DNA from: Dechloromonas denitrificans
GTDB taxonomy: Bacteria; Pseudomonadota; Gammaproteobacteria; Burkholderiales; Rhodocyclaceae
Direction: 5' to 3'
DNA: 64,000 nucleotides
Assembly (NCBI RefSeq): GCF_020510685.1
Contig: NZ_CP075185.1
Location: forward strand, 2,418,001-2,482,000
In this document: positions 52,552 through 59,579 of the stretch, one piece after another
Position numbering within the stretch: position 1 is the first letter of the stretch
How the letters are laid out: each line of letters begins with the position of its first letter
The notes under the pieces: model-generated
Told to the model about the DNA's origin: nothing
Seen by the model: only the letters and a program-made list of their open reading frames with translations
Databases searched by the model: none
Translations under genes and position numbers: made by a program

Positions 52552-52627
52552 TCCTCGATAGCTCAGTTGGTAGAGCGCCGGACTGTTAATCCGTAGGTCC
52601 CTGGTTCGAGCCCAGGTCGGGGAGCCA
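52552..52627 (+). tRNA. tRNA-Asn(GUU)
   Basis: A 76-base tRNA: acceptor TCCTCGA, D-arm AGCTCAGTTGGTAGAGC, anticodon GTT, T-loop GGTTCGAGCC and encoded CCA. Own promoter and terminator. Confidence 0.96.
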
Positions 52628-52642
52628 GAGAAAACCACATTT

Positions 52643-52669
52643 AGCCCAATCATCAAGATTGGGCTTTTT
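52643..52669 (+). terminator. Terminator of tRNA-Asn
   Basis: AGCCCAATC, 5-base loop, GATTGGGCT, then TTTT. The rest of 52670-52835 shows no gene. Confidence 0.88.
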
Positions 52670-52835
52670 GCTTTCCGGCCCAAGTTCAGCCACGGCACAG
52701 TTGCATTCCATTACCGCCCCCTCCCCGCTGAATGGTCGAAAATTCAACGCCAGATGATAACCGGCGTTTGCTTGCTCAAACAATGCTTGACCCAACCGAA
52801 AGCCGCTTGGGCAACGATTATTCGCCCTTTGAAAC

Positions 52836-53957
52836 TCACACATCGGCAAAGCGATAAGCGATTTCCGCGAATTCGGCCTGAATTTCAAGAAACAGATCGA
52901 CCAGCCGGGGATCGAAATGCTTCCCGCTGTCGGCACGAATGACGTTGATCGCCTCGTCTATCGGCAATGCTTCTTTGTATACGCGCTTGCTGACCAGTGC
53001 ATCGAAGACGTCGGCGATGGCCATTAAACGGGCGGCCAGCGGAATTTCCTCGCCCTGCAGCAGGTCCGGATAACCACGGCCGTCCCAGCGCTCATGATGC
53101 CAACGGGCAATCTGCCGCGCCACTTCGAGGAAGGCCAGAGCCGGGCTGCCGTCGCCGGCGATGGCGGGACTTGCATCCTTGACCCGCTGCATGGCCTGGG
53201 CAATGGCATCGGCACCGATCTGGCTATGCTTTTTCATTATTTCAAATTCGTCGTCCGAGAAGCGCCCAGGTTTATACAGGACGCTGTCGGGAATGCCGAC
53301 CTTGCCGATATCGTGCAGAGGCGCCGCCTTGACGATAGAAGTGAGTTCTTCCTCAAGCAGATTGCCGAAGCGCTCCGGGTGCCTTCGAATGGCGTGAACC
53401 AGCGCCTCGACGTAGGACTGGGTTCGATGAATGTGGTTTCCGGTGTCACTGTCGCGCGTTTCGGCAAGAATCGCCAGGGCATGCAGGCTGGCGCTCTGGA
53501 TCACCTCGTTGTCACGCATGCGCCGTTTGACTTCGGCGTCGAGAAAGGCGTTCTGATCCCTGAGCCACTCCTTGGCCCGTTTGTTTTCGAGTTGAGTATG
53601 AACCCGTGCCAAAACGACGGCCGGCTTGACCGGCTTGGCAATGTAATCCGCGGCGCCAAGTTCGAGGCCACGCTCTTCGTCCATGGCCGAATCCTTGGCG
53701 GTCACGAAGATGACCGGAATGTCGCGGGTTACGATGTTTTCGCGCAGATGTTCGAGAACCGAGTAGCCATCCATTTCCGGCATCATGACGTCGAGCAGAA
53801 TCAGGTCCGGGCGCGGTTCGGAAAGTGCCGAGCGCAGCGCGCGCTGGCCGCCGGTAGCGACTTTGACCTGATAGAAAGGGGCCAGCACCGCACCGAGAAT
53901 CTCCAGATTTTCCGGCTGATCGTCGACCAGGAGAATGGTTTGTAGGTGCTTGTTCAT
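52836..53957 (-). CDS. Response regulator with HD-GYP cyclic-di-GMP phosphodiesterase domain
   Basis: A 373-residue protein. Receiver domain at about 5-120 with phospho-acceptor Asp56 (LILLDVMMP) and Lys108. HD-GYP domain at about 155-365: HD in [14 protein letters not shown] (H215-D216) and the GYP loop [20 protein letters not shown] (G295-Y-P). Such proteins hydrolyse cyclic-di-GMP and so lower surface attachment or change motility. It overlaps the hybrid kinase gene by four bases and is its probable output. Confidence 0.94.
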
Positions 53958-56900
53958 GCTGTTTCCAGGGTGCTCAGTGCTTCATCATAAGCGAAGCGTG
54001 AAATTTGTTGTCCCAGACGCTCCAGGACGACCGGCTCCAGCACCCCGGCCAGGACGCTCCGGTTTTCCTCGAAATAGTGCCGTGCAGCGATATCGTCGGC
54101 CGCCAGCAACACCTTGAGCCGGGCCAGCAGGCGCCGCGGACTGACCGGATCGGGCAATGCGAGCGCCGGAGGAACGATGGCCTCCGGCGTAGCGAGGAGC
54201 GCCACGATGTCGTTGATCAAACGGGGCAGTTCCTCGGCCAACTGGTCCAGGTGAACCTGGGCAGCTTGCAGAACGGGATCCTTGAGCGACCTTTCCAGTT
54301 CGGTGGCAAGCCGTTGAATAGCGGCCGCCCCGATGCCGCCAGCTCCCCCCTTCAGGGAATGGGCGCAGGACTCGGCCTCGCGAATGTGCTGTTGCGCGAG
54401 GTGGTCACGTAATTTCTCCACGTCATCGCGATGGCCATCGGCAAACAGTTGCAAGATCCGCAAATAGGAGGAAATTTTGCCGCGAACGATGTTCAGTCCG
54501 GCATCGACATCGAGACCTTCAATGTCTCTCAGCCTCGCCTCCAACAACGGATTACTGTCCTGGGGCATCTCGGCGCGGGGCAAAACATCGTCTTCCGGCA
54601 CACTTTCTTCACGGCGCGGGAGCCAGTGAAGCAGCGCATCGATCAGCGCCTTCGGGTCGATCGGCTTGGCGACATGATCGTTCATGCCCGCCTCCAGGCA
54701 TAACTGACGATCCTCGGCAAAAGCATTGGCGGTCATCGCCAGAATCGGCAGTTCGGAGCGGCCGGGCAAGGCGCGAATCCGCCGGCAAGCTTCCAGACCA
54801 TCCATGCGCGGCATCTGAATATCCATCAGGATCAGTTCATAGGCATTGGCGCGCGCCATATCGACGGCCATCTGGCCATCCTCGGCCAGATCGACCGAGA
54901 CGCCGGAGTCGTGCAGCAGTTCAAGCGCCACTTCCTGATTCACCCGATTGTCCTCGGCCAACAGAATGCGACGACCCTGCAACTTGCTGCGGACATCGAC
55001 AATGCTGATCTCCGGGCTTGTCGGTTTGAGCAAATAGCCGGGCTGAGTACGCGCGATCGCATCAAACAAGCTGGAGGGGGTGGCGGGCTTGCTGAGTATT
55101 CCGTCGATATCGCGACTCGCGGCTACCCTGGCCAGGTAATCGCGCCCCGGCACCGTCATCAGAATGATGCTCGGGTGCTCTGCCGGACAGGCCTGACGCA
55201 GCTTGCGCGCGGTCTCGATACCATCCATCCCGGGCATTTCGGCATCGATCAGGACCAAGCCAAAATGCCGGTCTGAACGCGCCGCCTCGACCACCTCGCG
55301 CACCGCATCGGAACCGCGGGCCGCCGCAGAAACCTCGAGGCCGAATCGGGCCAGGGTCTGCATGATCGCTTCACGAGCCTCCGGCAGATCGTCCACCACC
55401 AAGGCCCGCGGTTCGGCCATGCCGATCTTCGGGATATCCGGGACGCCTTGGCCATTGAGCATCAGCAAGGGCACCTCGACCCAGAAAGTACTCCCCTTGC
55501 CGGGTTCGCTGACGACCCCCACGGCCCCGCCCAGCAATTCCGCCAGGCGCCGGCTGATGGCCAGCCCCAGTCCGGTGCCGCCAAACTGGCGGGTGGTCGA
55601 ACTATCGGCTTGTTCGAACGCTTGGAATATCCGCGATTGCTGCTCAGCAGTCAGACCGATGCCGGTATCGCAGACCTCGAAGCGGACGTGCAACTGACTG
55701 GCCGAGCGGCTGACCGCTTTAGCCCTGAAGACGACGCTCCCCGTGTGGGTAAATTTGACGGCGTTGCTCGCGAAATTGACCAGAATCTGCTGCAGGCGGA
55801 CGCTGTCGCCCCGCAGCACGAACGGCAGCTCCGGATCGATGCGCACGACGAGCTCGATCCCTTTTGCGGCGACCGCCTCGCCAACCAGATTGGCGATGTT
55901 CTTGAAGAGCTCGTCCAGCTTGAACTCGACGCTCTCCAGGCTCAATTTGCCGGCCTCGATCTTCGAAAAATCGAGAATGTCGTTGATGATGCTCAGCAAG
56001 TGCTTGGCGGCATCGGTAACCTTGTCGAGCTGTTCGATCTGCCGCGGCAGCACCGCCTCGCGCCGAAGCAGATGGGTGAAACCGATGATCGCGTTGAGCG
56101 GCGTCCGGATCTCATGGCTCATGTTGGCCAGGAATGCACTCTTGGCTGCATTGGCCGTCTCGGCAATCTCCTTGGCCTCGGCCAGTTCGGAGGTCCGGTC
56201 GCGGATCATCTCTTCGAGATGGTCGCGGTGGCGGATCAACTCGTTTTGCGCGCTGCGATGCTCGGTTATGTCGTAGGCGACGCCGAGCACCCCGATCAGC
56301 GTGCCATCCGCCGCCCGCATCGGCGTCTTGGTCGTCTCAAAAAGACCGCGGTAGCCATCGGCCTTGAAGGTCAGCCACTCTTCATTGACCGAAGAGTGGT
56401 TCGAGCTGGCCGCCAGTCGGTCCTTGCTGCGGAAGAAATCAGCCTGCTCGCGATCGACGAAGTCGTAATCGGTCCGGCCAATGACGGCCGCTTGGGCGGC
56501 ACCGAAAAATCGCTCGAAAGGCGGGTTACAGGCCAGATAGACCCCGTTCGGATCCTTGAGCCAGACCAATGCCGGAATCGTTGCAAACAGCGTTTGCAGA
56601 CGCGTCCGTTCGAATTCGAGTTCCGAGAGCGTTTTCTGCAGATTGCTGTGGATCTGGAGCAGTTCCAACTCGACGCGCCCGGTCAGGGTGAACATCACGG
56701 CGGCAAAGGCAACCAGGGTAATGGCGGTAATCAGCGGCACCAGAACCAGCAAGCGCTTGGTGCGCTGCAACTGCACATCACCGTCTTCACGAATGTGGTC
56801 ATTCAGCGTTTTGAGATCATCGAGCAGAAAATCCTGACGTTGCTGGAGAAAATCGATGGCGTTCACCAGCGTCCGCACCGCGACATAGTATTCGCCGCCC

Positions 56901-57355
56901 TCGCTGACATTCAGGCCTTCACCGAAGCGGCGCAGCAAGGATTTCTCCTGCAGACTGCTTTCGCTGAAAGCCGGATTGGCCAACTGCCCCTTGATGCCAT
57001 CGATTTCCCGCCGGATCAGCTGCCAACTACCGGCAATGGCATCCGCCTGGGTCGGCGCTTCCCTGGCCACCCCGTCAAGCAGCCGGTCGAAATCGTTCAC
57101 CGAGGCTTCCCAGCTCTTGCGCTGCTTGATCAGTTCCGGCGTCGATAGCAGGCGCTCCGTGTGGTACTTCAAGGCCAGGACGGATTTATAGGCGTCCTCC
57201 ACGGCGCGCTGGCGGGCGACGACCGCGCTGTAATCGAAAGCCAAATAGGCGACCGCCACCCCGCTCAGCAGCGCCCCGAGGATGAGCACGGCGAACCCAT
57301 ACAGCGAGATATTCCGGATGCTTCGTGGGTTTTTGATCACAACCTGACCTGCCAT
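53954..57355 (-). CDS. Hybrid sensor histidine kinase with two receivers and Hpt domain
   Basis: A 1133-residue inner-membrane phosphorelay kinase. Membrane helices at about 18-40 and 203-225 enclose a periplasmic sensor of some 160 residues. Then PAS (about 250-370), HisKA with His414 in [12 protein letters not shown], ATPase domain with NAVKFTHTG and [10 protein letters not shown], receiver 1 (about 650-765, Asp704), receiver 2 (about 810-930), and Hpt with [17 protein letters not shown] near 1010. ATG 57355 shares one base with the binding protein's stop (TAATG), which selects it. No known family name; a BarA/ArcB-like architecture. Confidence 0.92.
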
Positions 57356-58836
57356 TATCGATTCACGTTCAGCGAGGCCTTGTAGTAGGCAATCTGCTTG
57401 TCCCGGCCAAGCCGCTCGGTAATCTTCTCCCATTCCTCGGCCGCCCGGTCGAGCGCCTCTTTCGGCTTCATCTCGCGGTTGACCGCCTTGGCGACGAACT
57501 CGTCGGCGACACGGTAATACTCCCCGGCACCGGGAATGGTTATGTCGTAGACGACATTCGCGTTCGATAGCGACTGGGTGATTTCCTCAAGATAGGCTTT
57601 GGCCGACTCGGTCGAAAATCCTGACTGATTCCACGAGGCGGGATCTTCAAAATGCGAGCGACGCGACGGGTTGACCGCGGTTCCGCTGATCGCCGTCAGT
57701 TTTTTGGTCAGTGCTTTCGAGGTCATGTGGGCGGCAAACTCAAAGGCCAGGGCTTTGTTCTTCGAAGCCTTGCTGACGAAGAAAGTCCAGTTGCCGCTGA
57801 TCGAAGAGACCTGATTCGGCCGCTCGTCCCAGTGGCCGCTTATCGCGTTGAAAACTTCGCCACTGCCCGGAATCTGGCTGTAGCCGATCTTGTCCTTGAC
57901 CACCGAGGCCGGCGAGTTGACCGCATGCACGCCCATGTCGGCCCAATCGATAGCCATCACCGTCTGCCCGGAAACGAAACTGTTGCGGACGTCGTGGCCG
58001 GCAAAATTGACCATGCCCGGCGGGCCATATTTCAGCGTGTCGACCCACACCTGCAAAGCCCGGACGAATCCAGGATTGTTGATCCGCGGCTTTAAGGTAT
58101 CGGGGTCGAAGTAGTAGGCAGGATCGTCGGGATGCTTGGCAAAAGCCGCCGCCTGGGCAAAGAACTGGAGCATCGAGATATCGCCCTTGACCCGGTTGCC
58201 GGCAACGCCATAGCCCGGCTTGCCATTGCCATTCCAGTCCCAGCCGGTGAAAAACTCGGCAATGTCGCGATAGGCTTTCCACGTTGCGGGTGGCGCCAGG
58301 TCATATTTGTACTTTTTCTTGAATCGCGCCTGAAACTCCGGGTTGGCGAAAATATCCTTGCGGTAATAGAGATTTATGCAATCGCCATCATAAGGCAAGC
58401 CGTAGGCGACGTTATTCCATGACAAGACCGTATTGCGGTAGATCGGCAGCACATCGTCCCAGTCGATCTTCCGCTTGATCGCTTCAGGAACCGGCTCGAC
58501 ATACCCACCACTGAGAAGCGTGCCGCTCCACATCGAAATGACGACGTAGATGTCGAAATTAGCATCCGCCGACTTCAGCGACTCATCGATTTTCTCGATA
58601 GTCTCGTTCCAGCCCGGCGTCAGCACCCGGACCTTGGCACCGGTCTTCTCCTGGAAATTCTCGACTTCATCGAGAATCGGCCCGCGAATCAGACGGGCAT
58701 CGAGTTTGGGCACAATCAGCGAAATCGATTGCCCTTCGAAAGGTCGCGCCAACGGCTTGGTCGGCGCTTCGCCTGGTTTCTCGCCACAACCAAACAAGGC
58801 GGCAAGGACGACAAGGCAGATGCTGATTCGTTTCAT
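57355..58836 (-). CDS. Extracellular solute-binding lipoprotein (sugar-type)
   Basis: A 493-residue family 1 binding protein. Signal sequence with lipobox ALFGC (Cys17 is the lipid anchor). [20 protein letters not shown] and the central sugar-type fold follow; residues [10 protein letters not shown] and [20 protein letters not shown] suit ligand binding. No ABC permease or ATPase gene is nearby. Instead the kinase follows by one-base overlap. It likely presents a ligand to the kinase's periplasmic domain, as LuxP does for LuxQ. Strong GGGAGGGAG site upstream of ATG 58836. Confidence 0.88.
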
Positions 58837-58960
58837 GCTGACTCCCTCCCCACGAGAGCTACAAATATGCCAAACGGCTTTTTATGGCAAGGCGAACGAT
58901 CCGGATCGCCCTGATCGCCGCGGGTGACGCAATAGACTTGTATATTTGATACTTCGGTCG

Positions 58961-59014
58961 GTGGAAAATCAACCGTTGATTTGAGCAAAGTGGAAAAATC
59001 AACAATCGATTGAC
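58961..59014. promoter_or_regulatory. Two tandem operator-like repeats upstream of the binding protein operon
   Basis: GTGGAAAATCAACCGTTGATTTG at 58961 is matched by a second copy beginning GTGGAAAAATCAACAATCGAT at 58990; the two GTGGAAAA starts are 29 bp apart, close to three helical turns. Each copy holds an inverted repeat (AATCAAC and GATTg/t). They lie 125-178 bp before the operon's first ATG, in the 58837-59048 gap. Binding protein unknown. Confidence 0.55.
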
Positions 59015-59048
59015 ATTTTGCCGGCAAACCCAAACCGCAGCACAGCGA

Positions 59049-59579
59049 TCAGTCCTCGCCGGAAGCTTCCGGGAACAGCACGTCGGTAAAACCAAAGCGT
59101 GAGAAATCGCGGATGCGCGAGGGGTAAAGCCGACCGATCAGATGGTCGCATTCGTGCTGCGCCACCCGCGCATGAAAACCACTGACCGTCCGGTCGATCG
59201 CCTGGCCGAACGGATCGAAACCCTGGTAACGAATGCGGCCGTGACGGGGGACCTCGCCGCGCAGACCGGGCACCGACAGACAGCCTTCCCAGCCCAGCTC
59301 TTCCTCGGCGCCGAGCGGCGTGATCACCGGGTTGATCAGAACGGTTTGCGGAACCGACTCGGCATCCGGGTAACGTTCGCTCGTCTCGAAACCGAAAATC
59401 ACCACCTGCAAGCCGACGCCGATTTGCGGCGCGGCGAGGCCAACGCCGTCAGCCGCACGCATGGTCTCGAACATGTCGTCGAGCAACTGGCGAAGCTCCG
59501 GCGTATCGAAACGCAACACCGGGGCGGCCAGTTGCGTCAGGATAGGATCTCCCATGCGGAGAATGGCTCGGACGGTCAT
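59049..59579 (-). CDS. def: Peptide deformylase
   Basis: A 176-residue metalloenzyme removing N-formyl groups from new proteins. Motif 1 [10 protein letters not shown], motif 2 EGCLSVPG with metal Cys, motif 3 QHECDHLIG with the two His. ATG 59579 is the family start; the frame is open upstream but not coding. Not adjacent to fmt, so perhaps a second or lone copy. Confidence 0.94.

Follow-up and report, generated by a model that had tools for sequence, protein, structure and literature searches.

What does a sugar-binding lipoprotein do at the head of a signalling operon that has no transporter genes beside it? The question is raised by a locus in a 64,000-nucleotide stretch of the Dechloromonas denitrificans genome (the window; contig NZ_CP075185.1, positions 2,418,001 to 2,482,000). 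There, three coupled minus-strand genes, called as open reading frames (ORFs) and running from position 58836 down to 52836, encode a sugar-type solute-binding protein (SBP) with the features of a lipoprotein, a hybrid sensor kinase, and a response regulator with receiver (REC) and HD-GYP domains. A preliminary description of this DNA treated the three genes as one coupled unit. Our analysis upholds the link between the first two genes, whereas the output varies among relatives, and the HD-GYP regulator is just one of the forms that it takes. The conserved unit is the pair formed by the SBP and the N-terminal sensor of the kinase, not the triplet. We assign a probability of about 0.7 to the reading that the locus belongs to a modular receptor family in which the ligand-loaded SBP would act on the sensor and the cytoplasmic output can be exchanged.

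The SBP gene (57355-58836) encodes 493 residues that match the Pfam families SBP_bac_8 (3.3e-24) and SBP_bac_1 (3.2e-20), and the nearest solved relative by sequence is the trehalose/maltose-binding protein 1eu8 (2.4e-15). Lipoprotein status is read from an alignment, in which Cys17 is invariant and in a lipobox-like context in 22 relatives. The kinase gene (53954-57355) encodes 1133 residues arranged as sensor-PAS-HisKA-HATPase-REC-REC-HPT. Pfam recognises the PAS, HisKA, HATPase_c, and Hpt domains and two Response_reg stretches, and the corresponding motifs are an H-box at residue 411, receiver Asp motifs at residues 700 and 841, and an Hpt His motif at residue 998. The longest ORF for this protein starts at 57433, but we used the ATG at 57355 because it is close to where the aligned relatives begin. 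Residues 1-240 (56636-57355) comprise an unclassified sensor domain, defined by a 20-sequence alignment, together with two hydrophobic segments that a hydropathy scan places at approximately residues 12-47 and 199-230, flanking the periplasmic part. The regulator gene (52836-53957) encodes 373 residues with Response_reg (7.3e-25) and HD_5 (5.9e-28) matches, a receiver motif LLDVM at residue 54, and the catalytic HDIGK and GYP motifs. The protein is a predicted cyclic di-GMP (c-di-GMP) phosphodiesterase, and its nearest solved relative is the cyclic di-GMP phosphodiesterase 4r8z (1.7e-46). The gene overlaps of one to four bases reported earlier are confirmed by direct reading of the minus strand: the SBP/kinase junction is TAATG (57353-57357), with a 1-base overlap at 57355, and the kinase/regulator junction is ATGA (53954-53957), with a 4-base overlap. 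The genome itself (G000) is a single contig of 4.62 Mb with a completeness of 100, and it holds only one match to the window SBP (E ≤ 1e-3).

A binding protein and a sensor domain that occur together

A protein search with the window SBP returned 491 matches (E ≤ 1e-20). Nearly all of the best 120 of these are at least 58% identical to the query, and the source names among them include Rhodoferax, Gammaproteobacteria, Sulfuricurvum, Sulfurospirillaceae, and Arcobacteraceae. Mean column identity across 22 aligned SBPs from the best 120, the query's own protein included, is 71%. A near-invariant binding protein points to a single, conserved class of ligand. Scanning named genomes with the SBP yielded 78 loci, whose SBP profile scores fall in steps: unsplit genes of the subfamily score at least 649 bits, three Chloroflexota loci 405-421, genome G150 306, and the other loci examined at most 166. 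Pieces of split SBP genes in genomes G044 and G202 score 522 and 382 bits. Among the 91 positions that are invariant in 29 subfamily SBPs, 27 are not common to the three Chloroflexota cousins. An SBP tree of 41 rows places the 24 subfamily rows in one starred clade (99/99), the deeper order being unsure because of long branches.

The subfamily is represented by 27 loci (the window, L015 of genome G044, L025-L043, L125-L129, and L137, which is the second copy in G202) from Pseudomonadota, Campylobacterota, and one member of Thermodesulfobacteriota. Gene calls are ORF-based, and domain calls in fetched loci were made by BLAST or phmmer against reference proteins or domains from the window and the fetched loci, with an additional Pfam check of ten sensor-bearing partners. 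In all 27 loci, the direct neighbour of the SBP gene encodes a protein that carries this sensor at its N terminus. The contig of L041 ends inside the sensor, and the two genes of L137 are divergent. The 15 loci for which gaps were tabulated range from a 4-base overlap to a separation of 13 bases.

Whole genomes give the same picture. A sensor search of 23 genomes matched 21, all of which carry the SBP subfamily (G202 with two copies). The two genomes lacking the sensor are Chloroflexota, and their 38% identical SBP stands beside permeases. In the class of G209 (Campylobacterota; 298 genomes searched), the sensor was detected in seven genomes (E ≤ 1e-4) and the SBP in six (E ≤ 1e-40); all six SBP genomes are among the seven, and in every one of them the coordinates place the two genes side by side. 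Five of these six co-occurrences are new because G209 was both the search centre and a source of the sensor profile. Among 300 genomes of the window's order, G000 alone has the sensor. The SBP is matched in 19 of them (E ≤ 1e-20), of which only G000 (1.3e-283) belongs to the subfamily, and the next matches are G150 (6.9e-91) and others at 2.7e-44 or weaker. Similarly, the SBP is matched in 11 of 199 relatives (E ≤ 1e-20), with strong matches in G000, G014, and G044. By these counts the family is rare and has a patchy distribution, and its presence in Pseudomonadota, Campylobacterota, and one member of Thermodesulfobacteriota suggests horizontal transfer.

The sensor is a small domain of no recognised class that we found only with this SBP subfamily. 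Its alignment of 20 sequences has 17 invariant columns and contains the motifs KYxTERLLTT, FSxxNLMEKSLLRRLGEGLN, and EKSLLRRLGEGLN. When three sensors were scanned alone, no Pfam family exceeded its cut-off (the best was Lit, 0.0025, below its cut-off), and no Pfam family was found in the first ~220 residues of eleven full-length partners (E ≤ 1e-3). Comparison of the sensor profile with the PDB produced only chance-level matches (best E 0.23). Two protein searches with the sensor stretch returned 47 and 54 proteins, six of them in common, for 95 distinct proteins. A hand count based on precomputed Pfam annotation divides these into 60 kinases, 17 GGDEF-EAL proteins, 16 HD-GYP proteins, and two incomplete proteins; no chemoreceptor or adenylate cyclase is among the 95, with candidates restricted by the length limits of the search.

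Strongly conserved polar motifs such as KYxTERLLTT and EKSLLRRLGEGLN could form a ligand site within the sensor itself. The sensor would then bind its own signal, and the SBP would only buffer, deliver, or scavenge the ligand without docking. We regard this explanation as unlikely. The subfamily loci and genomes examined contain no sensor without the SBP, a marginal fragment in G271 apart, and SBP-receptor systems are described as working by contact in parts of two reports (PMC9602780, PMC8967002).

Exchangeable outputs behind the sensor

According to the modular receptor reading, the lipid-anchored, sugar-type SBP would bind a small ligand on the outer side of the inner membrane and, once loaded, act on the periplasmic sensor of its partner, probably through docking. 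The sensor would pass a transmembrane signal that leads to autophosphorylation at the H-box (residue 411), and phosphoryl groups may then be transferred via receiver and Hpt (residue 998) to the HD-GYP protein, at its receiver domain, each transfer being predicted. The expected end result is a changed rate of c-di-GMP hydrolysis. The earlier proposal of a drop in cyclic-di-GMP is not retained, as the sequence gives no sign: ligand binding might switch the kinase either on or off, and both GGDEF and EAL domains occur among relatives. Across the relatives, the same SBP-sensor pair fronts a fused GGDEF-EAL output, a fused HD-GYP output, or a kinase that lacks a neighbouring HD-GYP regulator.

Outputs could be classified in 26 of the 27 loci, the exception being L041 with its contig end. 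A kinase followed by an HD-GYP regulator is present in five loci (the window, G044, L026, L027, and L032), so that the three-gene order of the window recurs in four others, more than a chance arrangement would explain. Nine loci (L025, L028, L038, L042, L126-L129, and L137) have a kinase without an adjacent HD-GYP regulator, which is absent in three of the eight betaproteobacterial loci of the kinase type (L025, L028, and L137). At L038, the kinase is followed by receiver genes, including one for a REC-GGDEF-EAL protein. The sensor is fused to GGDEF-EAL in ten loci (L029-L031, L033-L037, L043, and L125) and to HD-GYP in two (L039 and L040), with L039 showing a further, partial GGDEF match behind the HD-GYP domain. 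A c-di-GMP enzyme is fused or adjacent in 17 of the 26 classifiable loci, which agrees with the prior expectation of a c-di-GMP output; such an output is not obligatory because of the nine loci with a kinase lacking the adjacent regulator.

The catalytic motifs are largely kept. All ten fused GGDEF-EAL partners have the GGDEF motif, and nine have EAL while one has EVL (L033). HD-GYP motifs are present in both fused partners and all five regulators, including that of L032, which has an LLDVTMPDMDG receiver and an HDMGK motif. The kinases of L038, L042, L126, L128, and L129 have other phosphoacceptor motifs (AHQWRQP, AHNFNNN). Output labels change repeatedly when mapped onto the SBP tree (GGDEF-EAL two changes, kinase five, kinase with HD-GYP regulator two), and outputs have therefore been exchanged more than once. 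In the tree, the three GGDEF-EAL loci from beta- and gammaproteobacteria cluster with kinase loci of betaproteobacteria (100/100), apart from the campylobacterotal GGDEF-EAL loci.

The loci with a kinase alone also allow for the possibility that the SBP-sensor pair works but that the neighbouring HD-GYP regulator is a passenger, with the main output of the kinase elsewhere. We consider this quite unlikely for the window: kinase and regulator are coupled through the ATGA junction, the regulator follows in five betaproteobacterial loci with 64-69% identity to that of the window, and other members of the family fuse c-di-GMP enzymes to the same sensor.

Several further features of these loci were recorded. 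In G044 (L015:11332-12812), the SBP frame is split into two overlapping ORFs, and the kinase and HD-GYP regulator are intact. The Sulfuritalea metagenome-assembled genome (MAG) that contains L028 (G202) has a second, divergent sensor kinase (L137:3428-6964) adjacent to a second, divergently oriented SBP gene whose frame is split. In genome G341 (L165:1553-3526), a GGDEF protein gene ends ~75 bases upstream of an SBP-kinase pair on the same strand. A convergent tRNA-Asn gene (52552-52627) lies downstream of the three-gene unit in the window. Promoter scanning found no sigma-70-like site in 52600-59200, and terminator-like sites in this interval number 10 versus 7.3 expected. Upstream of the SBP gene, at 58965-59011, are two near-palindromes AATCAACNNTTGATT, 30 bases apart, one exact and one with 1-2 mismatches. 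This pair was set aside as a candidate operator: the exact pattern occurs at one place only in the genome and in none of the other-genome loci among 231, and it is absent (≤2 mismatches) upstream of 17 relatives.

Transport and the candidate ligand

The fold family of the SBP is that of importer components, and its nearest cousins are found in ATP-binding cassette (ABC) operons. The Chloroflexota loci L044-L046 each combine an SBP of 38-39% identity with two permeases. Among the distant-SBP loci L047-L102 (21-25% identity), a permease match lies within 7 kb in 50 of 56, the others being L066, L068, L085, L088, L095, and L099. The SBP of the window might accordingly be an ordinary importer component with permeases encoded elsewhere, its position before the kinase serving merely to co-regulate uptake and signalling. 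Some permease match in 12 of the 23 sensor-bearing genomes is compatible with this explanation, which we nevertheless judge very unlikely. The remaining 11 genomes, including the complete G000, have no related permease, the sensor pairing holds in all 27 loci, and permeases do not flank the SBP in the subfamily loci with annotated surroundings, the sole exception being a pair of ABC genes upstream of L027 that looks unrelated. No ABC gene adjoins the three-gene unit of the window, and the early view of a binding lipoprotein without ABC partners that is tied to a receptor therefore stands. An SBP always linked to an ABC permease, with the kinase occurring alone, was named in advance as the pattern that would speak against a signalling unit; the close family shows the opposite.

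These permease counts come from a query with the L044 permease, which lies beside the nearest ABC-linked SBP. It matched 15 of 26 genomes (E ≤ 1e-5) and gave no match in G000 at this threshold, as a single Chloroflexota query that leaves other permease families unsearched. G044 is likewise among the 11 sensor-bearing genomes lacking a match. Five of the 12 matches are weak (best E 1e-8 to 5e-7: G211, G214, G215, G217, and G426), and that of G207 is 2.3e-11. The absence is firmest for G000 because many of the sensor-bearing genomes are MAGs. For G000, with no permease match, an orphan ABC-type SBP served by a related permease in trans is unsupported. In addition, 6 of the 23 sensor-bearing genomes have no PF13416 match other than the linked SBP.

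Window SBP positions that align with the residues lining the trehalose/maltose pocket of 1eu8 include W103, Y149, D150, D152, W298, G348, W350, and D431. These positions are invariant in the 29 subfamily SBPs and identical in the three ABC-linked SBPs of Chloroflexota. The likeness is only partly specific because six positions (D150, G151, D152, W103, W298, and D431) are also common to four more distant ABC SBPs. Two of the Chloroflexota operons (L044:1874-8079 and L046:9827-16019) combine the nearest ABC-linked SBP with two permeases, an FGGY kinase, and an aldo-keto reductase, and the FGGY kinase of L044 exceeds the xylulokinase cut-off (411.9 versus 380.25 bits). We treat these operons as a lead to the ligand class. 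Our best guess, a weak one, is a small carbohydrate or polyol, perhaps pentose-like because of the pocket positions and the xylulokinase-like neighbour of the 38% cousins.

Known systems and the standing of the family

The preliminary description knew of no named system with this exact gene set. A search of open-licence literature, covering titles and the opening parts of abstracts, likewise found no description of the SBP and sensor set, a result that does not establish its absence from print. However, there is a close functional precedent in NspS-MbaA. Part of one report states that norspermidine-bound NspS associates with MbaA and favours synthesis, and that apo or spermidine-bound NspS leaves MbaA a phosphodiesterase (PMC8967002). 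The NspS-MbaA systems of Vibrio cholerae and Sinorhizobium meliloti resemble the window in having an SBP gene directly before, and overlapping, the gene for a periplasmic-sensor c-di-GMP receptor. Ten relatives of the window (10 of 26 classifiable loci) also share the GGDEF-EAL receptor output. In contrast, the receptor of the window consists of a kinase phosphorelay and an HD-GYP protein rather than one protein with periplasmic, GGDEF, and EAL domains.

For comparison, we used a pair from Sinorhizobium glycinis (L226), identified by gene order and family only, in which a PotD-like SBP ORF overlaps a GGDEF-EAL ORF by 4 bases. The two SBPs are only distantly related, aligning with an hhalign probability of 88% over 102 of 503 columns, and the window SBP belongs to the same superfamily as the PotD type. 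The sensor hidden Markov model has no match at E ≤ 10 to the L226 MbaA-like sensor, and hhalign gives a probability of 0.3% against the first 287 residues of the L226 protein. The sensors show no detectable homology, and membership in the NspS-MbaA family was rejected. By analogy, the window locus would work like NspS-MbaA in principle without being a member.

TorT-TorS and LuxP-LuxQ are systems of an SBP plus a hybrid kinase. They resemble the window, where the SBP stands beside a hybrid kinase with a His-Asp-His relay and receiver and Hpt domains. The NCBIfam TorS and LuxQ models, however, reach only 432.8 and 356.5 bits on the kinase core, below their cut-offs of 676.5 and 1200. The TorS and LuxQ sensors are represented in the PDB, whereas the window sensor profile finds no relative there, and the output of the window is an HD-GYP enzyme. 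The SBPs of CUT1-type sugar ABC importers (e.g., 1eu8) share the sequence family and several pocket-equivalent positions with the window SBP but, unlike the latter, belong to systems with permeases in the operon. Similarly, the window regulator has the receiver and the HD-GYP metal and GYP motifs of REC-HD-GYP response regulators such as its relative 4r8z, but is tied to an SBP-dependent kinase, and its c-di-GMP hydrolysis is a prediction. The NCBIfam NosR-family model stays below its cut-off on this protein (141.3 versus 400).

Other SBPs are found beside signalling genes. In three genomes of the window's genus or family (G015, G119, and G084), a distant SBP with 27-31% identity to that of the window precedes a GGDEF-EAL protein that the sensor profile does not match (L021:7318-11371, L022:7368-11431, and L023:7385-11439), and these SBPs form their own clade in the SBP tree. 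G150 (L016:1139-7150) has an SBP of 32% identity, a hybrid kinase with a different N-terminal half, and a REC-kinase ORF that overlaps the kinase ORF by 4 bases. Judging from these arrangements, sugar-type SBPs have probably been recruited to signalling more than once.

Several observations weigh against the modular receptor reading of the window. Part of one study (PMC11113362) reports SBP and kinase genes that are neighbours but for which no interaction could be detected, so that adjacency alone is no proof of a functional link. A sensor match in G271 lacks an SBP, a marginal case (7.8e-5) based on a 73-position fragment. The distances of SBPs and sensors correlate closely across 23 pairs (r = 0.90, a value reached in 0 of 2000 permutations; mean identity 62% for the SBP versus 36% for the sensor); this speaks for the pairing, but mere co-inheritance also gives such a correlation. 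The split SBP frames of G044 and the second G202 copy argue against indispensability or reflect sequencing error. Finally, in 9 of the 26 classifiable loci the kinase lacks an adjacent HD-GYP regulator, and a related permease of some kind is encoded elsewhere in 12 of the 23 sensor-bearing genomes.

For most of the enzymes that set c-di-GMP, the messenger behind the choice between biofilm and swimming, the controlling signal is not known. A section of one review states that only one of 27 families of the periplasmic-binding-protein clan has been studied in c-di-GMP networks (PMC8846402). The coupling of an SBP-receptor pair to c-di-GMP is itself already known; what sets the present loci apart is the pairing of the SBP with a sensor that is not of the NspS-MbaA type. 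The partnership between this defined SBP and an unclassified sensor persists in three phyla despite changes of output, and the coupling of SBP to receptor is directly testable in tractable members, with the natural output swaps as controls. On balance, we lean slightly towards regarding these loci as a previously undescribed receptor family, in which a dedicated carbohydrate-type SBP and its private sensor serve as a portable module for input, carried across phylum boundaries and combined with no fewer than four output layouts, many of which have c-di-GMP enzymes. Members from the chemolithotrophs Sulfuricurvum, Sulfurimonas, and Sideroxyarcus have no or weak matches to the sugar permease query. 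If the portable-module reading is true, it would point to a conserved extracellular carbohydrate that these bacteria use as a signal and not as food.

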